NCBI RefSeq assembly: GCF_030653755.1
Contig: NZ_JAURYU010000045.1
Span: 186,001-250,000, forward strand
Direction: 5' to 3'
Source: Methylotenera sp.
Lineage (GTDB): Bacteria > Pseudomonadota > Gammaproteobacteria > Burkholderiales > Methylophilaceae
DNA: 64,000 nt
Shown here: in pieces, positions 36,524 through 47,262 of the stretch
Position numbering within the stretch: the stretch's first letter is position 1
How the letters are laid out: each line of letters begins with the position of its first letter
Notes under the pieces: generated by a model
The model's input: only the letters and a program-made list of their open reading frames with translations
What the model was told of the DNA's origin: nothing
The model's database searches: none
Position numbers and translations under genes: made by a program

Positions 36524-37117
36524 ATGTCTTTTGATTTTCATCACTACATTATGATTTTAGTCGGCACCGTGTTTGTCAATAACATCGTGCTGGTGAAGAT
36601 TCTTGGCTTATGTCCATTCATGGGCGTTTCTAAAAAATTAGAAGCCTCTATTGGCATGGCAGGTGCTACTGCGTTTGTTCTTAGTATCGGCTCAATGACC
36701 AGTTGGGGTATTAACTATTATTTACTTGAGCCCAATGGTTTGTTTTACCTAAGAACGCTCTCCTTCATTGTGATTATTGCTGGCGTGGTTCAGTTTACAG
36801 AAATGGTCATGGAAAAAAACTTCCCTACCCTTTACCAAGGCTTAGGTATTTTTCTACCACTCATCACAACAAACTGCGCAGTACTTGGCATCCCATTACT
36901 AAATGCACAGGCCAGCCATAGTTTTATAGAGTCTTTATTTTTTGGGCTAGGTGGCGCGCTTGGTTTTTCATTAGTGCTCATTCTGTTTGCTTCTATGCGA
37001 GAGCGATTAGAAGGCGCAGACGTGCCTGCTGCATTTAAAGGTTCTGCGATTGGGATGATTACTGCCGCACTCATGAGCTTGGCATTTATGGGCTTTATGG
37101 GGTTAGATAAGTACTAG
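36524..37117 (+). CDS. rsxA: Electron transport complex subunit RnfA/RsxA
   Basis: A 197-residue integral membrane subunit with six predicted helices. The conserved [21 protein letters not shown] (written in part) near residue 18 carries the Cys that binds the membrane iron-sulfur centre together with RnfE. The Rnf complex couples electron flow between NADH and ferredoxin to ion movement, and in gammaproteobacteria it also resets SoxR. It begins the complete rsxABCDGE-nth cluster. Confidence 0.96.
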
Positions 37118-37188
37118 GCAGCCACAAATGACAAACACTCAATTATTAAGCAATTGTATTTAACTAAAAATAATCAAAAATTAGCGAT

Positions 37189-37767
37189 ATGTTATTAACT
37201 TCCATCTACATCATGCTTGGGCTGGCTTTAGTGCTCGGCATTTTGTTAGGCATTGCAGCCTTACTTTTTAAAGTAGAAGGCGATCCATTAGTCGCGCGTA
37301 TTGATGCGATCCTACCTCAAACGCAATGTGGCCAATGTGGCTATCCTGGTTGCAAACCTTACGCAACCGCCATTGCTAACGGCGAGGCAGACATTAACCA
37401 ATGTCCACCTGGTGGCGATGCTGGCGTTCATGCACTGGCTGACTTACTTGGCGTAGAGTACAAGCCGCTCAATGCTGAGCATGGTCTACCCAAACCAAAG
37501 TCTGTCGCCTTTATTGATGAAGCCACTTGTATTGGTTGCACTTTGTGCATACAAGCATGCCCTGTCGATGCCATTTTAGGCGCGGCTAAACATATGCATA
37601 CGATTATTGCTTCAGAGTGTACTGGCTGCGAACTATGCTTAGCGCCCTGCCCTGTTGACTGCATCACGATGGAGCCTGTGGCGGAAACACCCGACAACTG
37701 GAAATGGAAATATCCTGTATTTCCAATCAAGGCATTGCCTGCGACTCAAGGCAAGGCATCATCATGA
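37189..37767 (+). CDS. rsxB: Electron transport complex subunit RnfB/RsxB (ferredoxin-like)
   Basis: A 192-residue iron-sulfur subunit. It has an N-terminal membrane helix, a [4Fe-4S] domain CGQCGYPGC...CPPGGD (about residues 46-85), then two ferredoxin motifs, [12 protein letters not shown] and [12 protein letters not shown]. All cluster Cys are present. Its stop overlaps the rnfC start (ATGA). It accepts electrons from or passes them to soluble ferredoxin. Confidence 0.96.
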
Positions 37768-39677
37768 ACAACATCATTCAATTCGCTAGCAAGCTCATTA
37801 AAGACCTCACCTCAGACAATGCAAATGAAGTGTATAAATTTCATGGTGGTGTGCATCCAGACGGGCACAAGCATGAGTCAACAACGCACCCAATTGCACA
37901 ACTTGCGATTCCAGAAACGCTGACCTTACCACTGCGTCAACACGTAGGCTACATCCCAAAAGTAAAAGTAAAAGTAGGTGATTATGTTTTAAAGGGCGAG
38001 ATGATTGCAGAGGCAGAGGGCAATGTGTCTGCGGCTATCCATGCACCGACCTCTGGCACGATTACTGCCATTGAGGAAGCTGTCATTCCGCATCCCTCTG
38101 GCCTGCCAGATATGTGCGTGACATTAGCACCAGATGGCAAAGATCAATGGACACCACTCAACCCGATTGATTGGAAAAACACACCTATCAACGAGTTGAT
38201 TACTAGCTTACGCTCATCTGGTATCGTAGGTCTAGGTGGGGCTACATTCCCCACGCACATTAAACTACGCAAAGATGGCGCTTCAGACATCCATACATTA
38301 GTCATTAATGCAGCAGAATGCGAACCTTACATCACTTGTGATGACATGCTAATGCGAGAGCGTGCTGATGAAATCATCAAAGGTATCGAGATTGTCCAGC
38401 ACTTACTTGGTGCCGCTAAAGTGATGATTGGCATTGAAGACAACAAACCTGAAGCAACTAGCGCGATGCACTCAGCTAGCCAGACATTAGCCAATGTATC
38501 AGTAAAAACAGTGCCGACACTATATCCAAGTGGCGATGCACGTAGGCTTATTCATCTATTATTAGGCGTAGAAGTACCGCACCACAAGCGCTCAACTGAG
38601 GTGGGAATCCAAGTATTTAACGTGGCAACAGTGTTGGCCATTTATCGTTATTTCACATTTGGTGAACCTAGCGTCAGTCGCGTTGTAACAGTGACAGGTA
38701 ATGTTGACACCCCTCAAAACTTTGAAGTTTTGCTTGGTACTCCCGTACCACTACTTATTGCTGCCGCTGGCGGCGCCAAAACAGACACCACCCACTTTGT
38801 GATGGGCGGCCCTATGATGGGTTTTGACTTACCAGGTATTAATGTACCAATCACAAAAGCTGCCAATTGCATCATCGCAGCAAGCCCAAGCTTATTTGCC
38901 CCACCACCCCCTGCGATGCCATGCATACGTTGCACACGTTGTGCAGATGTTTGCCCAGTGAATCTGCAACCACAAGAGCTTTACTGGTTTGCTAAGTCAG
39001 AAAATTTAGAAAAAGCGCGTGATTACCATTTATTTGATTGTATTGAATGCGGTTGCTGCACTTATGTGTGTCCAAGCAATATCCCACTAGTGCAATATTA
39101 TCGCTACGCAAAAAGTGAGATTATCGCAGCGGATAAAGCACAAGAGGCCGCCGACTTAGCGCGTGAGCGCAATGAGTTTAGATTAGCTCGCATCGAACGC
39201 GAAAAACTAGAGCGTGCGCAAAAACATGCAGAGCGTGCGGCTAGTGCAAAAAATGACGAATCTAAACCTGAACCAGTTAAAGCAGATAAAGAAAGACCTG
39301 CAAGTAGCGCTGAGGCAGATGATGCAAAAAAAGCAGCGATTGCGGCTGCCGTAGCGCGTGCAAAAGCACTTAAACTAGCCGCTGCGCAGTCTGACGCAAC
39401 AAAGACGGGCAGTGAAGAGGCGCCCGCACCAGCAATTGTCGAAAATAAATCTGAGCCTACGGCTACAGACAATGATGAGCAAGCTAAAAAAGACAAGCAA
39501 GCATTGATTGCAGCAGCCATTGAGCGCGCTAAAGCTCAAAAACTAGCAGCGGCTCAAGCAGGGGTTGCGCCAAAAAACACTGACGACCTCAGCCCTAAAG
39601 TCAAAGCTGAAATCACTGAAATTGAAACCATACGTGCAAGAGCAAAGCAGATGGTTGAAAATAAAGACGCCGACTAA
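37764..39677 (+). CDS. rsxC: Electron transport complex subunit RnfC/RsxC
   Basis: A 637-residue peripheral subunit, the NADH-binding input of Rnf. [14 protein letters not shown] is the NADH/FMN region, and [12 protein letters not shown] and [12 protein letters not shown] ligate two [4Fe-4S] clusters (about residues 390-440). Beyond residue 460 the chain is Ala/Lys/Glu-rich, with two repeats of the form AAA-(V/I)-x-RAKA-x-KLAAAQ. Start 37764 is chosen because it overlaps the rnfB stop; an upstream in-frame ATG at 37704 lies well inside rnfB. Confidence 0.95.
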
Positions 39678-39692
39678 TGGCTATACTTACTT

Positions 39693-39737
39693 AATTGTTA
39701 TTAGCTAAATTGTCATTAGCTCAATTGTTACTAGGAT
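39693..39737. repeat. 15-bp tandem repeat, three copies
   Basis: Three copies of a 15-bp unit starting AATTGTTATTAGCTA (copies at 39693, 39708 and 39723, two or more mismatches between copies) fill most of the rnfC-rnfD gap. The last copy runs into the rnfD ribosome-binding site. Confidence 0.7.
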
Positions 39738-39744
39738 AAAACGC

Positions 39745-40764
39745 TTGAACCGCTCACCTTACATTACCGACGCACCTACCGTTAGCGTCATTATGCTAAA
39801 AGTACTACTCGCGCTCGTGCCTGGCATCATGGCTTACGTGTGGGTTTATGGCGCAGGTATTTTAGTGACTCTTTCACTAGCCACTGTTACGGCTCTAGTG
39901 ACTGAAGCCGCAATTCTGAAAATCAGGCAGCGCCCTATCTCACCCAGCCTTGCAGATCTGAGCGCTGTTGTCACCGCATGGTTGTTAGCACTAGCATTGC
40001 CACCTCTCGCACCATGGTGGTTAGTGGTGGTGGGGTCGTTTTTTGCAATCGCCATTGCCAAGCAACTTTATGGTGGGCTAGGCTACAACCCATTTAACCC
40101 TGCGATGGTGGGTTATGCCGTGCTGCTGATTTCTTTTCCAGTCATCATGACTAAATGGCCTGCGCCGTTAATGCTTGCTGATGCGCCTTTAAGTGCGTTC
40201 GACCAATTAAAATTCATCTTTAACCATGCATTACCTGTAGGCGTTCAGTTAGATGCGGTGACCTCAGCAACGCCCTTAGATTATCTAAAAACACAATTGA
40301 TGCTTAAACACGAAGTTGCTGACATTACACAAGCGCCTATTTTTGGTCAATTCGGTGCCAAAGGCGGGGAAATGGTGACAGCTGGCTATCTACTAGGTGG
40401 CCTGTATTTAGTCCAGCAACGTATTATTTCTTGGCATTTGCCCACTGCATTTATTGCTACGCTGGCTTTGATTTCCTTAATATTTAATATTATGGACCCT
40501 ACGCACTTCACTAACCCAGCTTTTCATCTAATGACTGGTGCATCTATGCTTTGTGCGTTTTTTATTATTACAGATCCAATCAGTGGCCCAACCACACCCA
40601 AAGGCAAGCTGTACTTTGCGGCTGGCGTTGCTGTACTCACTTATTTAATTCGCGTATATGGTGGCTACCCTGATGGCGTGGCATTTGCGGTATTAATCAT
40701 GAACATGTGCGTACCCTTGATAGATGCTTACACGCAACCACGTGTATTTGGACATAAGCATTAG
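39745..40764 (+). CDS. rsxD: Electron transport complex subunit RnfD/RsxD
   Basis: A 339-residue membrane subunit with about nine helices. Its covalent FMN site is the Thr in AVTSATPL (about residues 174-181). FNPAMVGYAVLLISFP is the family motif. Translation starts at TTG 39745, preceded by AGGA. A central segment facing the periplasm separates two helix groups, as in other RnfD proteins. Confidence 0.94.
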   Translation: MNRSPYITDAPTVSVIMLKVLLALVPGIMAYVWVYGAGILVTLSLATVTALVTEAAILKIRQRPISPSLADLSAVVTAWLLALALPPLAPWWLVVVGSFFAIAIAKQLYGGLGYNPFNPAMVGYAVLLISFPVIMTKWPAPLMLADAPLSAFDQLKFIFNHALPVGVQLDAVTSATPLDYLKTQLMLKHEVADITQAPIFGQFGAKGGEMVTAGYLLGGLYLVQQRIISWHLPTAFIATLALISLIFNIMDPTHFTNPAFHLMTGASMLCAFFIITDPISGPTTPKGKLYFAAGVAVLTYLIRVYGGYPDGVAFAVLIMNMCVPLIDAYTQPRVFGHKH

Positions 40765-40772
40765 GAATACAA

Positions 40773-41435
40773 ATGTCAGACACTCTATTTAAACACACCT
40801 TTAAAACAGCGAGCACGCTCACTGCATTTTCACTGGTTGGCACTGCAATACTTGCTTATATTTTCATGATTACACGCGCACCAATTGAAGCGAGTGAGGC
40901 GGAAGCACGTTTGGCGCTTTTTTCACAAATACTACCGCATGGCCTGTACGATAATGATTTATTGAAAACCGAGTTGCTGATTCCACCTAACCCACTTCTT
41001 GGTAATCGAGTGACTAGCAAAGCTAACATTGCTAAATTAGACAATGAGCCTGTAGGTGTTATTTTAGAAGCGATTGCGCACGATGGCTACGCAGGCGATA
41101 TTAAATTGCTCATTGCCATTCGTACTGATGGCTCCATCAGCGGCGTGCGCGTCCTTACCCATAAAGAAACGCCTGGCCTTGGGGATTATATTGAAATCGA
41201 GCGTAACGATTGGATCACTCAATTCAATGATGAATCTTTAGTTAAAACAGCTGCCAAAGATTGGGTGGTGGTAAAAGATGGTGGAAAGTTTGAATACATG
41301 GCGGGTGCGACCATTACACCTCGCGCAGTGGTAAAAGCCGTTGCAAAAGCACTACAATTTTTTAATGAGAACAAATCAAGATTATTAGAAAATAATACTG
41401 TAGATAAAGCACTACCAGGTAAGGACAACTCATGA
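40773..41435 (+). CDS. rsxG: Electron transport complex subunit RnfG/RsxG
   Basis: A 220-residue subunit with one N-terminal membrane helix and a periplasmic FMN-binding domain. The covalent flavin site is the second Thr in GATITPRAVV (about residue 177). HKETPGLGDYIE is the conserved loop before it. It starts 8 bp after rnfD and its stop overlaps the rnfE start. Confidence 0.95.
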   Translation: MSDTLFKHTFKTASTLTAFSLVGTAILAYIFMITRAPIEASEAEARLALFSQILPHGLYDNDLLKTELLIPPNPLLGNRVTSKANIAKLDNEPVGVILEAIAHDGYAGDIKLLIAIRTDGSISGVRVLTHKETPGLGDYIEIERNDWITQFNDESLVKTAAKDWVVVKDGGKFEYMAGATITPRAVVKAVAKALQFFNENKSRLLENNTVDKALPGKDNS

Positions 41436-42130
41436 GCATTTATAAAGAAATCACCCTTAATGGGATTTGGAAACAAAATCCTGGTGTTGTCCAACTATTA
41501 GGCCTTTGCCCAACGCTGGCTGTCACAACCACTGTTGTGAATGGTGTAAGTCTTGGCTTGGCAACTGTATTGGTGATGGCGGCGGCAAATGGTGCAATCT
41601 CACCTGTGCGTAAATATGTACCGAATGAGATTCGAGTACCCGTCTTTATTTTGGTGATTGCTGCGCTCGTTACCATCATCGACTTATCCATCAATGCATT
41701 TGCACACCCATTGCATAAAGTGTTAGGAATTTTCATCCCTTTAATCGTGGTCAATTGTATCGTGCTAGCACGTGTTGAGTCATTTGCGGCTAAAAATGCG
41801 CCGATACCCTCTATTCTTGATGGCTTTATGATGGGGATGGGGCTAACTTTAGTCCTAGCGCTACTCAGTGGAATGCGTGAAATTGTAGGGAAAGGCACTT
41901 TATTCTCTGGTTTAGATTTAGTATTTGGGCCATCAGCCAAGCAGTTTATGCTCACGGTTATTCCTGATTACCATGGCTTTTTATTAGCGGTCTTACCACC
42001 TGGCGCATTTTTAGGTTTAGGCATACTCATCGCTGCACGTAACTGGATAGAGTTAAGAAACAAAGCTAAAGACAGTACTCACGACAATCATGCAATAACA
42101 CCTGAAATTCAACCTGCGCTTAACGCTTAG
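41432..42130 (+). CDS. rsxE: Electron transport complex subunit RnfE/RsxE
   Basis: A 232-residue membrane subunit homologous to RnfA. NPGVVQLLGLCPTLAVTTT carries the conserved Cys that shares the intramembrane cluster with RnfA. GMGLTLVLALLSGMREIVGKG is the second conserved segment. Translation is coupled to rnfG by an ATGA overlap. Confidence 0.96.
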   Translation: MSIYKEITLNGIWKQNPGVVQLLGLCPTLAVTTTVVNGVSLGLATVLVMAAANGAISPVRKYVPNEIRVPVFILVIAALVTIIDLSINAFAHPLHKVLGIFIPLIVVNCIVLARVESFAAKNAPIPSILDGFMMGMGLTLVLALLSGMREIVGKGTLFSGLDLVFGPSAKQFMLTVIPDYHGFLLAVLPPGAFLGLGILIAARNWIELRNKAKDSTHDNHAITPEIQPALNA

Positions 42131-42147
42131 TCTGTCAGGCGCATCAT

Positions 42148-42813
42148 ATGAATGCAGAAAAACGCTTAGAGATATTCAAACGTCTAAAGCTAGCGATTCC
42201 AAACCCAGCAACAGAGCTGAACTACAGCAGCCACTTTGAGTTACTGATTGCAGTGATGCTCTCTGCACAAGCAACTGATAAAAGCGTTAATCTAGCAACA
42301 GACAAACTTTTTGCAGTCGCTAATACACCAGAAAGCATGTTGGCACTAGGGTTAATCAACCTAGAGAGTTACATTAAAACCATCGGCCTGTATCACGCTA
42401 AAGCCAAAAATGTTTTAGCCACCTGTCAAATACTCATCCATCAACATCAATCCCAAGTACCACACTCACGCGTTGCTTTAGAGGCATTGCCAGGAGTTGG
42501 CCGCAAAACAGCTAATGTTGTTTTAAATACGGCATTTGGTGAACCCACCATTGCCGTGGACACGCATTTATTCAGACTAGGCAACCGCATTAAGCTGGCT
42601 GTGGGCAAAACCGTTCTGGAAGTAGAAAAGAAATATATTAAAACGATTCCAGCGGAATTTATGCAGGATGCGCATCACCTGCTCATACTGCATGGCCGTT
42701 ACGTATGCACTGCGCGTAAACCAAAATGCGCAGAATGTTGCATAGAAGACTTATGTGAATATCAGGCAAAAGAATATCAGTTGCCACAGATGACTCTATC
42801 AGCACAAAGATGA
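42148..42813 (+). CDS. nth: Endonuclease III (DNA glycosylase/AP lyase)
   Basis: A 221-residue base-excision repair enzyme that removes oxidised pyrimidines. The helix-hairpin-helix is LPGVGRKTANVV with the catalytic Lys, and the catalytic Asp is in AVDTHLFRLGNRI. The C-terminal [4Fe-4S] cluster is C-x6-C-x2-C-x5-C (CTARKPKCAECCIEDLC). It ends the rsx-nth operon as in enterobacteria, and its stop overlaps the next gene. Confidence 0.97.
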   Translation: MNAEKRLEIFKRLKLAIPNPATELNYSSHFELLIAVMLSAQATDKSVNLATDKLFAVANTPESMLALGLINLESYIKTIGLYHAKAKNVLATCQILIHQHQSQVPHSRVALEALPGVGRKTANVVLNTAFGEPTIAVDTHLFRLGNRIKLAVGKTVLEVEKKYIKTIPAEFMQDAHHLLILHGRYVCTARKPKCAECCIEDLCEYQAKEYQLPQMTLSAQR

Positions 42814-43889
42814 AAGTCGCTACCAGCATTGTACTAGGCCGCCAAGCTCTACCCACTTTGGCTAGTCAAGCCGTTAACAATGCAATGAGCAAAGCAGGCA
42901 TCACGACAGCCAATGGTGTTTTATTGCTGCTGACTTCAGAATTTGCAAGCAACCCACAAGCCGCCATTATGGCTGCGGCGAAAGCTGCTGGTTGTACGCA
43001 AGTGGCTGGTTGTTCAGCAACAGGTATTTTTACTGAAGAAGACTGGGTACTCGACACACCTGCTGCTGCCGCGATGGTATTTGGCGGTGACATCAAGTTA
43101 GCACTAGCGCAACATAACGATGCTGGACAACCCCTGCTTACAATGGCCGCCCCCAGCGCGATTAACAGCACATGGCTTAATCATCATATTCGTTATGGTG
43201 GAATATCTGGCGACGCAACAGGGCATGGGCCATTTTCAGTATGGCAAAATGCAAAAGGTGATGTAAAAGGTCATATCGAGATGTTTTTATCTGGTGTAAA
43301 AATGGCAACAAAAGCCTCTCACGGCTTAATGTTACTCAGTACACCAAAGCAAGTGAATGCAAGCAAGCAGTTTGATCTGGAAATATTAGGTAAACAAAAA
43401 GCACTAAGAGCATTACAAAAAGCTTGGAAGAATCATCATCAAACCGAAGAAGCATTTCCCCTACATTTAATGATGGCTGTTTATGCTGAGAGTGCAGATG
43501 CAATTACTCAGGGGAACTATCATCAAACCTCTATCATTAGCTATGATGAGGAAAATGGCAGCATTACACTCGCACATGCACTGCCTGTTGGTCACTATGT
43601 AAGCTGGGCTCTACGCGATGCAACCACAGCTGAAGCTGATATGGCGCTAACAGCAGACACACTGGCAAATGAGCTGGCTAGCCACCCAGACTTTGGATTG
43701 TTATTCTCCTGTTTAGGCCGAGGCCCATATCTGTATAACGGAGAAGATCTCGATTTAAAAGTCATTACGCAGAAGTTCCCAAATATGCCATTATTAGGGT
43801 TTTACGGTAACGGTGAAATTACCTGTATTGATGGGCAGAATCAGCTACTGCCTTACTCTACCGTTCTTTCATTATTTACAGCATTATAG
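42810..43889 (+). CDS. FIST-domain sensory protein
   Basis: A 359-residue protein with FIST_N (about residues 25-210) and FIST_C (220-340) domains. VAGCSATGIFTEED and LFSCLGRGPYLYNGEDLD are their characteristic Cys-Gly-rich segments. FIST domains are predicted small-ligand (amino-acid-like) sensors. Here there is no output domain, so it probably acts with a partner. It overlaps nth by 4 bp and is followed by DUF1841 and an ECF sigma factor gene, so it may feed a signal into that system. Confidence 0.85.
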   Translation: MKVATSIVLGRQALPTLASQAVNNAMSKAGITTANGVLLLLTSEFASNPQAAIMAAAKAAGCTQVAGCSATGIFTEEDWVLDTPAAAAMVFGGDIKLALAQHNDAGQPLLTMAAPSAINSTWLNHHIRYGGISGDATGHGPFSVWQNAKGDVKGHIEMFLSGVKMATKASHGLMLLSTPKQVNASKQFDLEILGKQKALRALQKAWKNHHQTEEAFPLHLMMAVYAESADAITQGNYHQTSIISYDEENGSITLAHALPVGHYVSWALRDATTAEADMALTADTLANELASHPDFGLLFSCLGRGPYLYNGEDLDLKVITQKFPNMPLLGFYGNGEITCIDGQNQLLPYSTVLSLFTAL

Positions 43890-43896
43890 GTACCTT

Positions 43897-44334
43897 ATGA
43901 GTTTATATAACCCCAGCCGCGACCAAGCCAGACAATTTTTGTTTGACGCATGGGCTAAATTTAAACAACACTCACCACTCACTGATTTAGAAAAAATTGC
44001 AGTTGAAGTGATGCAAATGCATCCTGAATATCACACGATACTAGATGCACCTGAGCGCTACATGCAGCAGCAATATTTTCCAGAACAGGGTGAAACAAAC
44101 CCTTTTTTGCATTTAAGCTTACACTTATCAGTCATTGAGCAAATATCGATTAACCAACCAATCGGCATTGCCCCGATTTATGAAAAGCTCAAACTGAAAC
44201 ACAGCGACCAGCATATGGCACAACACGATATATTAGAGTGTCTTGCTGAAACGATTTGGCAATCTCAACGCAACAATACACCATTAGACTCGGCGCATTA
44301 TCTTAGCCTTTTAGAACAAAGGGCAGCCGTTTAA
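43897..44334 (+). CDS. DUF1841 family protein
   Basis: A 145-residue, all-helical soluble protein. LHLSLHLSVIEQISINQP and HDILECLAETIWQSQR are the conserved DUF1841 segments, with repeated His residues that might bind metal. ATG 43897 with AGGT upstream is chosen over an upstream in-frame ATG at 43813 that overlaps the FIST gene. It ends 1 bp before the sigma factor gene. The family has no known function. Confidence 0.8.
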   Translation: MSLYNPSRDQARQFLFDAWAKFKQHSPLTDLEKIAVEVMQMHPEYHTILDAPERYMQQQYFPEQGETNPFLHLSLHLSVIEQISINQPIGIAPIYEKLKLKHSDQHMAQHDILECLAETIWQSQRNNTPLDSAHYLSLLEQRAAV

Positions 44335-44335
44335 T

Positions 44336-44893
44336 ATGAGCAACAATGTCAACGATTGGCTCAACGACCACGGCGACTACTTGTATCGTTTTGCCTTAGC
44401 ACGTTTAAAAGACACCCACCAAGCGGAAGATGCAGTGCAAGAAACCATGCTCGCAGCCATCAAAAACAATAGCTTTGAGGGTGATTCATCAATACGCACA
44501 TGGCTCACTGGCATACTCAAACATAAAATCATTGATATGCAGCGTAAACTCATCCGTGAACAGCCTGTATCTGACATTATCGATCTAGATGCTTCAGATG
44601 AAAGTATGGATGATTTCTTCGATAAAACTGGCCATTGGTTAGACAAACCACAATCCTTTGACATGCCAGACCATGCTTTAGAACAAAGCCAATTTCTAAG
44701 TGTGTTGGATGCCTGTATGCAAAAACTACCAAAAAAGCTAAAAGTGATTTTCATGTTACGAGACGTACATGAAATGGAGAATGAAAACATTTGTAAGGAA
44801 CTGGATATTACTCCGACCAATGCTTGGGTAATGTTATATAGAGCTAGGATGGGATTAAGAAAATGTTTAGAGATGAATTGGGTTAAAGGTTAG
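44336..44893 (+). CDS. ECF-type RNA polymerase sigma factor
   Basis: A 185-residue sigma factor with region 2 (YLYRFALARLKDTHQAEDAVQETM, written in part) and region 4 (LPKKLKVIFMLRDVHEMENENICKELDI, partly). The two are joined by an acidic linker of about 55 residues rich in Asp, and there is no region 3. An anti-sigma gene follows 9 bp later, then a secreted Cys-rich peptide and its modifying enzymes. In Neisseria a similar ECF sigma sits with DUF692 and DUF2063 genes. It probably controls the peptide system. Confidence 0.92.
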   Translation: MSNNVNDWLNDHGDYLYRFALARLKDTHQAEDAVQETMLAAIKNNSFEGDSSIRTWLTGILKHKIIDMQRKLIREQPVSDIIDLDASDESMDDFFDKTGHWLDKPQSFDMPDHALEQSQFLSVLDACMQKLPKKLKVIFMLRDVHEMENENICKELDITPTNAWVMLYRARMGLRKCLEMNWVKG

Positions 44894-44902
44894 GTTTATC
44901 AT

Positions 44903-45160
44903 ATGCTTACCTGTAAACAAGCAAGCCAATTAATCTCTCAATCTTTAGACCATCCTTTATCTTGGTATGAACTTATGCAACTCAGACTGCATCTTATGAT
45001 GTGCGGTGCATGCAATCGATTCAGGAAACAATTAAATGTATTGCGTGTTGGGTTGCGTAAGATTAGAGCCAATGTAGAAAACGATAGCGCTATTCAGCTC
45101 CCATTAGATGCAAAAGCGAGAATTGTTGAAAAGGTAAGGTCTGATCAACACGCTAAGTAA
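44903..45160 (+). CDS. Zinc-finger anti-sigma factor (zf-HC2/ZAS type)
   Basis: An 85-residue soluble protein. Cys4 and the H-x3-C-x2-C motif (His30, Cys34, Cys37) form the ZAS zinc site, where metal or oxidation often releases the sigma factor. There is no membrane segment, so it should sense a cytoplasmic signal. It follows the sigma gene by 9 bp and is almost certainly its cognate regulator. The signal is unknown, and copper or thiol stress would fit the neighbouring peptide. Confidence 0.88.
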   Translation: MLTCKQASQLISQSLDHPLSWYELMQLRLHLMMCGACNRFRKQLNVLRVGLRKIRANVENDSAIQLPLDAKARIVEKVRSDQHAK

Positions 45161-45215
45161 CTTTCGTTAGTTGAAACACAGTAAGTATTAACTATTTAAT
45201 CTAAAGGAAACGACA

Positions 45216-45542
45216 ATGAACAAAACACAAAAAACACTTTCTCTTGCTATTGGTGGTGCTTTAGCACTTTCTGTTGCAACAACCACTATTAATGCGGCAG
45301 AAAATCCATTTGCATTGAAATCACTCTCAAGTGGCTACCAAGTTGCAGATGCACATGATGCAAAAGCAACCGATGGCAAATGCGGCACTGGTAAATGTGG
45401 TACCGCTGAAAAAGCTAAAGAAATGAAAATGAAAGATGGTAAATGTGGTACTGGCAAATGCGGCAGTGCAGAAAAAATGAAAGAAGGTTCTTGCGGCGGG
45501 GAGAAAGCTAAAGAAGGTTCATGTGGTGGTGAAAAGAAATAA
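45216..45542 (+). CDS. Cys-rich secreted RiPP precursor (bufferin/HvfA-like)
   Basis: A 108-residue precursor. A signal peptide (residues 1-28, ending INAA) is followed by a spacer and then a Cys-containing repeat region. DGKCGTGKCG occurs twice (Cys56/61 and Cys77/82) and EGSCGGEK twice (Cys93, Cys103), separated by Lys/Glu/Met segments. Precursors of this kind are modified on Cys by MNIO enzymes to copper-binding thiooxazole or oxazolone/thioamide groups. AGGA lies seven bases before the ATG. The MNIO gene begins 24 bp after the stop. The modification itself is inferred. Confidence 0.85.
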   Translation: MNKTQKTLSLAIGGALALSVATTTINAAENPFALKSLSSGYQVADAHDAKATDGKCGTGKCGTAEKAKEMKMKDGKCGTGKCGSAEKMKEGSCGGEKAKEGSCGGEKK

Positions 45543-45566
45543 GCACGACTCAATTTAATATTACGG

Positions 45567-46472
45567 ATGGTGAGTCGTAATCAAATTCATGGTGCAGGTC
45601 TGGGGTTGAAGCGAGCGCTAATACCCCAGATTCAGTCACTCTATCACCAACCATCAATATCAAACATTCAGTTTGTTGAAATTGCACCAGAAAACTGGAT
45701 TGAAGCTGGCAGCAAAGCAACAAAACAGCTAGATTGGTTTGCAGCACACTACCCTATTGTATGTCATGGCCTTTGCTTATCGCTAGGTGGCATCAGCCCG
45801 CTAAATGTTGATTTCTTACATCAGGTTAAGCAACTCTTAGACCACTACGATATAGGCATTTATACTGAACACTTAAGCTACTGCACGGATGCCTACCAAG
45901 GTAAGCAAGGTTATTTATATGACCTGCTACCTATTCCCTTTACTGAAGAAGCGGTGCACTACGTGGCTAAGCGCATACGTCAAACACAAGATACTCTTGG
46001 TCGTCGCATAGGCATCGAAAATGCCTCATTTTATGCGGCTGCGCCTATCTCAGAAATGAGCGAACTTACCTTTCTTAACGCAGTACTCAGCGAGGCGGAT
46101 TGTCTTTTACACTTAGATATTAATAATATTTACGTTAATAGCGTGAATTTTAACTTTGATCCGCATGCATTTCTGCGTGGCATTCCACATGAACGGATTA
46201 TTTACAGCCATATTGCAGGGCATTATCAACAAACACCCGAATTACTCATTGATACGCATGGTGAAAATGTCATCGACCCAGTTTGGGCACTACTTGAAGA
46301 TGCCTATGATTTATTTGGTGCGTTCCCTACGCTACTTGAACGCGATAGCAACATTCCTACCCTAGATGTATTAATGAAAGAAGTGAACAAGATTGCCGAC
46401 TTACAACATCAGGCGAATCAACGCACAGTCAAAACTAACCCTCAAACATTAGCCACGCTCACTTTGACGTAA
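45567..46472 (+). CDS. MNIO-family multinuclear iron oxygenase (DUF692, BufB/HvfB-like)
   Basis: A 301-residue TIM-barrel enzyme. Likely iron ligands and conserved sites are visible: His67 in CHGLCLSLGG, Glu101-His102 in YTEHLSY, Glu151 in GIENASF, Asp184 in LHLDINN, His215 in SHIAGH, Asp229 and His231 in LIDTHGE, and Glu258 in LLERD. The family oxidises Cys residues in peptide precursors with two or three irons. Its place between a Cys-rich precursor and a DUF2063 gene makes peptide modification its probable job. The final product is not known. Confidence 0.92.
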   Translation: MVSRNQIHGAGLGLKRALIPQIQSLYHQPSISNIQFVEIAPENWIEAGSKATKQLDWFAAHYPIVCHGLCLSLGGISPLNVDFLHQVKQLLDHYDIGIYTEHLSYCTDAYQGKQGYLYDLLPIPFTEEAVHYVAKRIRQTQDTLGRRIGIENASFYAAAPISEMSELTFLNAVLSEADCLLHLDINNIYVNSVNFNFDPHAFLRGIPHERIIYSHIAGHYQQTPELLIDTHGENVIDPVWALLEDAYDLFGAFPTLLERDSNIPTLDVLMKEVNKIADLQHQANQRTVKTNPQTLATLTLT

Positions 46473-46485
46473 TTGAAACTTTGCG

Positions 46486-47262
46486 ATGACAGACAATCTA
46501 CCAAGCTTCCAACGCTACCAACTAGCATTTACATCACGGATACGCGACCCACGTAATCAGCCCATCCCTGCAGGCGTAGCACCTGAGCGCATGGCGGTGT
46601 ATGACGAAATTGTATTTAACAACCTATTTGAGTCTGTCTCTGCATGCTTCCCTGTTGCGCGTAAAACGGTAGGCAAACGCATTTGGCTGAAACTAGTGCA
46701 AGCTTTCTTAAAAGATTACGCCACTGACACCCCACTTTTTCGTAAAATCCCACAAGAGTTTTTAACTTTTTTACAGCAAACTAACCTAGCCTCACCTCAA
46801 CAACTACCTGTTTATTTAGTGGCACTATGTCATTACGAATGGATAGAACTCTATCTCAGCACTCTACCAAGCATGGCAGATAACGCCACTAACATAGCGC
46901 CAAATGGCGATCTAGCAAAACATAGCATTGTATTTACCAACACCATGCAACTGCTGGAATATGACTTTGCAGTGCATAAGATTTCCCCAAAACACAAGCC
47001 TAAGATTAAAGAACCTACTCAGCTGTTAGTGTATCGAAACCCCGAAGATGATATTAAGTTTATAGAACTCAACCAGATGTCCTTTAGATTACTGAAGCTA
47101 TGTCAGCAAGAGAGCATGCTAGCAGAGCAAGCGCTGATAATGCTGGCGGATGAGTTAAAACATCCCCAGCCTGAGCTAATCATACAATTTGGATTGAATA
47201 TTTTAGAAGATTTAAGAGGCCAAGGGGCTATTCTTGGCACCGCTCGTTCACATCTAACATAA
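46486..47262 (+). CDS. DUF2063 partner protein (BufC/HvfC-like)
   Basis: A 258-residue protein starting 13 bp after the MNIO gene. The N-terminal DUF2063 domain (LPSFQRYQLAFTSRIRD; AVYDEIVFNNLFESVSACFPVARK) is the helical part that in related systems presents the precursor to the MNIO enzyme. The C-terminal half is a mixed domain similar to RiPP recognition elements. The usual fourth gene (DoxX-type membrane protein) is missing here, since the next gene is on the opposite strand. Confidence 0.9.
   Translation: MTDNLPSFQRYQLAFTSRIRDPRNQPIPAGVAPERMAVYDEIVFNNLFESVSACFPVARKTVGKRIWLKLVQAFLKDYATDTPLFRKIPQEFLTFLQQTNLASPQQLPVYLVALCHYEWIELYLSTLPSMADNATNIAPNGDLAKHSIVFTNTMQLLEYDFAVHKISPKHKPKIKEPTQLLVYRNPEDDIKFIELNQMSFRLLKLCQQESMLAEQALIMLADELKHPQPELIIQFGLNILEDLRGQGAILGTARSHLT

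Follow-up and report, generated by a model that had tools for sequence, protein, structure and literature searches.

A captophorin-type RiPP locus adjoining an ECF sigma factor and a soluble zinc anti-sigma factor in Methylotenera

Gene content, precursor and expected chemistry

The window analysed here is a stretch of 64,000 nucleotides from Methylotenera sp., a methanol-eating bacterium (contig NZ_JAURYU010000045.1, positions 186,001 to 250,000), in which we studied a locus of five consecutive genes encoding an extracytoplasmic function (ECF) sigma factor, a soluble zinc anti-sigma factor (ZAS), a cysteine-rich precursor peptide, an MNIO (DUF692) maturase and its HvfC/PME1 partner (Table 1). 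All five open reading frames are present on the plus strand between 44336 and 47262, and each is intact. Families were called using NCBIfam curated cut-offs together with Pfam, the two being concordant for four of the proteins, the precursor excepted. The sigma factor scored 201.6 bits against TIGR02943 (cut-off 162.2), the anti-sigma factor 73.5 bits against NF052368 (cut-off 50) and the partner 246.4 bits against the HvfC family NF050145 (cut-off 142). A preliminary description of this DNA, made from the letters alone, had named the same five genes and the MNIO-DUF2063 pairing, and the matches above curated cut-offs, those of the maturase and its partner included, bear out both.

Table 1 Features of the locus and of the run ahead of it (window coordinates).
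Feature	Position	Strand	Matches and remarks
ECF sigma factor, 185 aa, TIGR02943 family	44336..44893	+	Sigma70_r2 1.1e-13; Sigma70_r4_2 7.9e-12
Soluble zinc anti-sigma factor (ZAS), 85 aa	44903..45160	+	zf-HC2 1.9e-8
55-nt gap before the precursor, the widest within the five-gene run	45161..45215	+	
Precursor peptide, 108 aa	45216..45542	+	NF050137 KCGExKCG_twice, 24.4 bits (cut-off 19.5)
HvfB-type MNIO maturase (DUF692), 301 aa	45567..46472	+	PF05114 329.4; NF003818 HvfB 386.3 bits (cut-off 360)
HvfC/PME1 partner, DUF2063 and NGO1945 C-terminal domain, 258 aa	46486..47262	+	PF09836 and PF22106
Rnf-type electron-transport subunits	36524-42130	same as sigma	then endonuclease III (nth), FIST-domain protein, DUF1841

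The closest solved structures were 3bww for the MNIO (1.7e-71) and 3dee for the partner (1.4e-12), both of which belong to the MNIO-PME1 set tied to the making of ribosomally synthesized and post-translationally modified peptides (RiPPs) (PMC13097082; published work is cited throughout from portions of each paper). The locus combines an HvfB-type MNIO, a PME1 protein with DUF2063 and a precursor with repeated Lys-Cys-Gly 5-mers, the features of the Captophorin/Buf_EGKCG group, and by its sequence it is a captophorin (Buf_EGKCG/oxazolin-type) RiPP locus.

The precursor has six cysteines (residues 56, 61, 77, 82, 93, and 103), set in the core motifs DGKCG, TGKCG, DGKCG, TGKCG, EGSCG, and EGSCG, that is, four GKCG and two GSCG. 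It begins with what reads by eye as a typical signal sequence, and a conserved stretch ahead of the core, NPFa.k.L.sGYqVA, is likely the leader. The signal sequence, the six cysteines and a likeness to HvfA/bufferin-type peptides had all been proposed in the preliminary description, with which our reading of the sequence agrees. No Pfam match to the precursor was found up to an E-value of 0.1, DUF2282, the mark of bufferin 1, included.

In the relatives fontiphorin, oxazolin, and gonophorin, an MNIO with its DUF2063 partner installs 5-thiooxazoles; the known products generally bind copper, as demonstrated for fontiphorin and gonophorin (PMC13097082). A two-repeat substrate lost 8 Da (PMC13097082), which makes the change close to −4 Da for each Cys and not a single H2; the losses of H2 or similar shifts first suggested for this precursor therefore overstated the case. 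The fontiphorin enzymes, FonBC, require a minimum of two repeats, fully modify DGKCG and tolerate Ala, Arg or Thr before the Cys, while in the EGKCG frame the Gly after the Cys could be replaced by Ala and by no other variant (PMC13097082). Since FonBC handles DGKCG as well as Ala or Thr at position 3, both kinds of motif in the window would be plausible substrates, and as the core fits these rules, four to six modified cysteines are expected. The window shares with fontiphorin (FonABC) and oxazolin (HvfABC) the precursor-MNIO-PME1 triad, the GKCG motifs and the PME1 and MNIO families, and differs from them in that two of its six motifs are GSCG and its Lys-Cys repeats are DGKCG or TGKCG, not EGKCG. 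In the inferred alignment its MNIO also has Lys15 in place of Arg15 and Ser261 in place of Phe250.

Conserved order and separability of regulators and peptide genes

We compared the locus with its named relatives, the best 80 of 369 found, which were mostly from Methylotenera and other Methylophilaceae; the MNIOs of the nearest two were 93% and 88% identical to that of the window. An MNIO match was present in 42 of the 61 genomes searched, with a single one in the window's own genome. Within the genus, 27 of 30 loci (the window's own counted) contained all five genes, in the same order and on one strand in every complete locus (27/27). The three incomplete loci had the sigma factor at a contig edge (L046), no sigma or anti-sigma factor (L054) or no HvfC match (L069). 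Gene order was counted in those named loci that extend 2 kb or more upstream of the MNIO, 71 of the 80: precursor and HvfC were present in all 71, and both regulators lay ahead of the precursor in 60, neither in 11 and just one in none, the sigma factor being in pieces in two of the 60 (L124, L134).

Apparent decay was seen in a few relatives, with an MNIO in pieces (L069:2405-4026) and a sigma factor in four pieces (L124:4696-5230), where sequencing error is possible. Broken copies of this kind are what one would expect if the cluster were a decaying remnant without function, a reading that we consider highly improbable, as the five window frames are intact and the MNIO and zinc-binding residues are conserved.

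The two modules are usually together, yet they are separable in both directions. In the Methylophilaceae clade both regulators accompanied the peptide genes in 57 of 62 loci and neither did in five (L101, L113, L127, L147, and L154), in all of which the precursor comes after nth-DUF1841, an arrangement also found in a further genome of the genus (G015, L089). No MNIO match was found in eight of 36 other genomes of the genus (G002, G005, G006, G008, G009, G026, G028, and G032), whose completeness ranges from 71 to 99%, most being incomplete, so that some absences may be gaps. A close sigma orthologue (at least 75% identity) was also absent from seven of these eight, G032 having only a 46% paralogue and G009 keeping a 77% orthologue; DUF1841 was kept in all except G009 (7/8). 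The converse case is G009 (82% complete), whose sigma and anti-sigma genes lie beside DUF1289 and secA on one contig (L073:946-4850); this stretch gave no match to the precursor, and the genome gave none to MNIO or HvfC.

In a class-wide sample of 185 genomes, the sigma family exceeded its cut-off at 20 places among the matches listed, at least five of them within 5 kb of an MNIO match. MNIOs above the HvfB cut-off occurred at 66 places among the matches listed, three of which, the window included, had such a sigma factor at 5 kb or less. An additional MNIO, only distantly related (about 40-43% identity), was carried by several Methylotenera genomes (loci L063, L064, L065, L066, L067, and L068); the stretch fetched around it gave no match to the sigma factor, the anti-sigma factor or a GKCG precursor.

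A putative sigma/ZAS switch and its alternatives

The anti-sigma factor carries Cys4, His30, Cys34, and Cys37, in agreement with the ZAS motif C/H-x23-26-H-x3-C-x2-C (as worded in PMC7907618), and among 65 homologues these residues were kept in 63, 64, 65, and 64, respectively. The same four positions are reported for MseR of Neisseria meningitidis (PMC2893595). The Neisseria sigma/ZAS pair autoregulates its own operon and drives msrA/msrB (PMC2893595, PMC3240639), and the Haemophilus pair RpoE2/HrsE, studied under hypochlorite, controls msrAB and a set composed of doxX, a periplasmic protein, UPF0276, and DUF2063 (PMC7907618).

Taking these lines together, we propose that the locus makes a modified, copper-trapping captophorin under a sigma/ZAS switch, a reading to which, as a whole, we give a probability of about 0.83. 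The precursor would carry a Sec signal peptide and a conserved leader, and HvfC/PME1 would present it to the HvfB-type MNIO. This enzyme would oxidise the Cys within the [DTE]G[KS]CG motifs, with 5-thiooxazoles as the most likely outcome, and the modified peptide would then reach the periplasm and, under metal or thiol stress, bind copper(I) or soft metals like it. The zinc anti-sigma factor would hold the sigma factor until its cysteines are oxidised or its zinc is displaced, and the freed sigma factor would raise expression of the peptide genes and probably of other targets. We favour this reading because of the family matches, the 3bww and 3dee structures, the conserved gene order, the ZAS residues and the chemistry and control published for relatives, and because seven of the eight MNIO-less genomes of the genus, most of them incomplete, also lack a close sigma orthologue. 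For the chemistry, the metal and export of the window's peptide we argue by analogy with those relatives.

Several observations weigh against this reading. The sigma/anti-sigma pair and the peptide genes each occur without the other. The precursor scored only 27.5 bits against the HvfA equivalog NF050188, far below the cut-off of 95, and by this measure is a relative of HvfA and not an equivalog. No DoxX gene was found at the locus, three matches lying elsewhere in the same genome. Published work does not agree on the signal for a ZAS of this type: peroxide, diamide and singlet oxygen left meningococcal sigma-E transcripts unchanged (PMC2893595), while PMC7907618 cites H2O2 as a reported inducer in Neisseria and finds that both HOCl and H2O2 raise rpoE2. 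Finally, no conserved ECF promoter emerged in front of the sigma factor or of the precursor, the 55-nt gap included, either among the upstream regions listed or in a two-block motif search over 36 dereplicated loci; the listings gave wrong stretches for a few contig-edge loci, and the sigma-upstream motif set included one wrong region (L158, its sigma factor cut by a contig edge). Likewise, the Neisseria −35/−10 consensus matched the two strands of the window 52 and 67 times, compared with 45-71 times per strand in ten shuffles, the best match in 42001-45216 (3 mismatches in 17) lying across the sigma/anti-sigma junction. A sigma-70 scan gave two sites, where shuffled sequence averaged 8.7. 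The two-block motifs scored 87.2 and 144.3, compared with 34-44 and 39-44 in base-shuffled controls, and were rejected as promoters, being largely in conserved coding sequence (the end of DUF1841 and the end of the anti-sigma gene).

These results bear on a different account, in which the sigma/anti-sigma pair is a neighbour with a wider redox regulon and read-through from rnf-nth-DUF1841, or a housekeeping promoter, accounts for most of the expression of the peptide genes. Besides the missing ECF promoter, this account is favoured by the position of the sigma gene, which starts one base after the DUF1841 stop, at the end of a dense same-strand run (36524-44334) of Rnf-type genes, nth, FIST, and DUF1841, by the five of 62 clade loci that keep the peptide genes with neither regulator, and by G009, which at 82% completeness has the pair and no MNIO or HvfC match. 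It is countered by the 60 of 71 loci in which the pair precedes the precursor; by four loci (L119, L155, L157, and L160) that keep the pair where nth and DUF1841 were not found in more than 4.5 kb upstream; by the joint absence of MNIO and close sigma orthologue in seven of eight genomes; and by the control published in Neisseria and Haemophilus (PMC3240639, PMC7907618). We regard the neighbour account as having an appreciable chance, short of even, of being correct. Because no promoter was found, sigma control of the window's operon is suggested, weakly, by position and relatives, and the term 'self-contained', which the preliminary description had used, is too strong for modules that occur apart and a sigma gene one base behind DUF1841. 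The natural separation of the regulator and peptide modules makes sigma dependence testable by lineage comparison.

The copper-trapping reading also has to be weighed against a peptide meant for another metal or stress (gold, zinc, hypochlorite), copper binding being incidental. The response of the Haemophilus sigma/ZAS pair to hypochlorite (PMC7907618) and the metal specificity left open by PMC13097082 speak for it; the copper binding general among known products, and shown for fontiphorin and gonophorin (PMC13097082), speaks against it, and we think it unlikely. A further point in its favour comes from G032, a genome with no MNIO match, where a paralogous sigma/anti-sigma pair lies ahead of genes for a DinB-FGE-methyltransferase protein and an aminotransferase (L075:4376-8745). 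We take the former to have an OvoA-like architecture of thiol metabolism, and from this neighbourhood thiol metabolism is a possible target of the TIGR02943-type sigma family.

Loci of this kind are already known, so the product was not as undescribed as initially thought: the set of ECF sigma factor, DUF2063, DUF692, periplasmic protein and DoxX genes has been published for the gonococcus (PMC2954202), and sigma/ZAS control for the meningococcus and Haemophilus (PMC2893595, PMC3240639, PMC7907618). The Neisseria sigma-E operon (NGO1943-1948/NMB2140-2145, gonophorin) resembles the window in its ECF sigma factor, MNIO, DUF2063 partner, and periplasmic precursor, and in a ZAS with its four zinc residues at identical positions. 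It differs in that its regulators stand, by gene number, at the 3' end rather than the 5' end (PMC2954202, PMC3240639), in that it includes DoxX, and in its main further target, msrA/msrB, as the window's genome has MsrA and no match to MsrB. In Haemophilus, sigma factor, soluble ZAS, and the periplasmic protein-UPF0276-DUF2063 set (doxX-hvfABC) are likewise present, with RpoE2-HrsE beside msrAB and apart from the RiPP genes, whereas the window's regulators adjoin them. Bufferin 1 loci with NrsF also link an MNIO-DUF2063 RiPP to a sigma/anti-sigma pair; the window differs from them by a precursor without DUF2282, a soluble ZAS instead of NrsF, and an MNIO that scored 265.2 bits against MNIO_BufB, below the cut-off of 310. 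The sections of PMC12452194 covered describe sigma/NrsF genes for the DUF2282 bufferins and name none for the EGKCG group. In the literature, incompletely covered, we found no report of such a cluster in Methylophilaceae, and the present comparison shows that captophorin loci linked to a sigma/ZAS pair occur throughout this methylotroph family. Its most interesting point is not the sigma linkage but the hint about specificity described in the last section.

On the 3' side of the cluster, the opposite strand carries a beta-barrel porin, a DUF1289 gene and a 908-aa open reading frame that reads by eye as SecA. On the 5' side, FIST was considered as a third regulator and dropped: of the 56 loci that have DUF1841 and enough visible sequence, the five without the sigma factor all lacked FIST, but so did 11 of the 51 with the sigma factor, and in G032 (L076) FIST is present at that place without the sigma factor.

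MNIO residue 261 and the residue after the precursor cysteine

In a model of FonB, Phe250, next to the catalytic base Asp249, contacts the preceding Lys and the following Gly that flank the substrate Cys (PMC13097082). The window MNIO has Lys15-Arg16 and Asp260-Ser261 at the presumed places of FonB Arg15-Arg16 and Asp249-Phe250. The one D-F dyad whose Asp is invariant in the 15 enzymes with Phe or Tyr aligns with Asp260-Ser261, and another pair of D-F columns, close to the N-terminus, has Asp in only 80%; we infer that the first corresponds to Asp249-Phe250.

We explored covariation between this residue and the precursor motifs in 84 loci (five of 89 rows were dropped, having no GKCG-type precursor). 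The residue after the Cys was Gly in all motifs of the 15 Phe/Tyr enzymes (69/69) and of the two Val enzymes (10/10). With the 44 Thr/Asn/Leu/Ile/Met enzymes it was Gly in 94 of 252 motifs, Ser in 131, and His in 11, and with the 23 Ser enzymes Gly in 94 of 131, Ser in 23, and His in 14. Ser or His thus follows the precursor Cys in many Methylophilaceae; the loci with Ser at 261 had all-Gly precursors in 16 of 23 cases and non-Gly motifs in seven, and the window, with Ser261 and all-Gly motifs, is on the conservative side.

The first contrast, Phe/Tyr versus the rest, had only two changes on the tree, too few for a test, and a finer grouping (TNLIM versus FYSV) was picked after the data had been seen. 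On supported branches, the concordant/discordant/tied changes numbered 4/0/2 in 182 of 200 pairings with a quick tree and 3/0/2 in 139 of 200 with a careful tree (without the long branches L060, L061, and L164), neither being significant; with well and poorly supported branches of the quick tree used alike, the most frequent result was 8/0/3 (147 of 300). All informative changes agree with the motif, but good support is limited to a few branches. Of the 280 columns tested, that of Ser261 came top by pairs with either tree, by a narrow margin in the careful one (7 vs 6; 5 vs 4), and only second by mutual information among the non-Phe rows. With the labels shuffled, the maxima ranged from 4 to 12 and reached or passed the observed 5 in 98 of 100 shuffles, so that the rank was not set apart, and as this control multiplies the changes too, it decides nothing.

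For a second sample we took the remaining HvfB-type loci of the class sample, 65 in number, of which 47 were left after 18 with no repeat precursor were dropped; the core-motif rule was written with the motif table in view, and L236-L238 were left out. A non-Gly motif occurred with three of four non-Phe and two of 39 Phe enzymes (Fisher p = 0.003), a test that sets aside the four of 47 loci whose residue was not read by pattern; the alignment reads Phe in all four, and in one, L208, non-Gly motifs occur in a precursor that is itself doubtful. Ala alone accounted for two of the three non-Phe and one of the two Phe cases, and FonBC accepts Ala as well; when Ala was not counted as non-Gly, the contrast vanished (1/4 vs 1/39).

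Taken together, these comparisons are suggestive of an enzyme residue that varies with the residue after the precursor Cys, a relation that is new here and testable, and not proven. As a tentative extension, more doubtful than probable in our judgement, the residue after the catalytic Asp might set which residue is allowed after the modified Cys. Methylophilaceae would then have lost the strict KCG code by changes from Phe to Ser, Thr, Asn, Leu or Ile, and their precursors would have grown a second G[SAN]C[SH] zone, giving two-zone peptides in which classical thiooxazoles are joined by sites that carry another modification or stay as free thiols, under a sigma/ZAS switch common to the clade. 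If true, such a rule, linking one residue to one motif position, would help to predict the modified cysteines in many MNIO precursors, more than 24,000 MNIO-PME1 loci having been counted (PMC13097082). One locus of the class sample, L210, combines a Phe-type MNIO with a precursor that has six EGSCG motifs and no Lys-Cys, so Ser before the Cys is not by itself tied to the Phe change.

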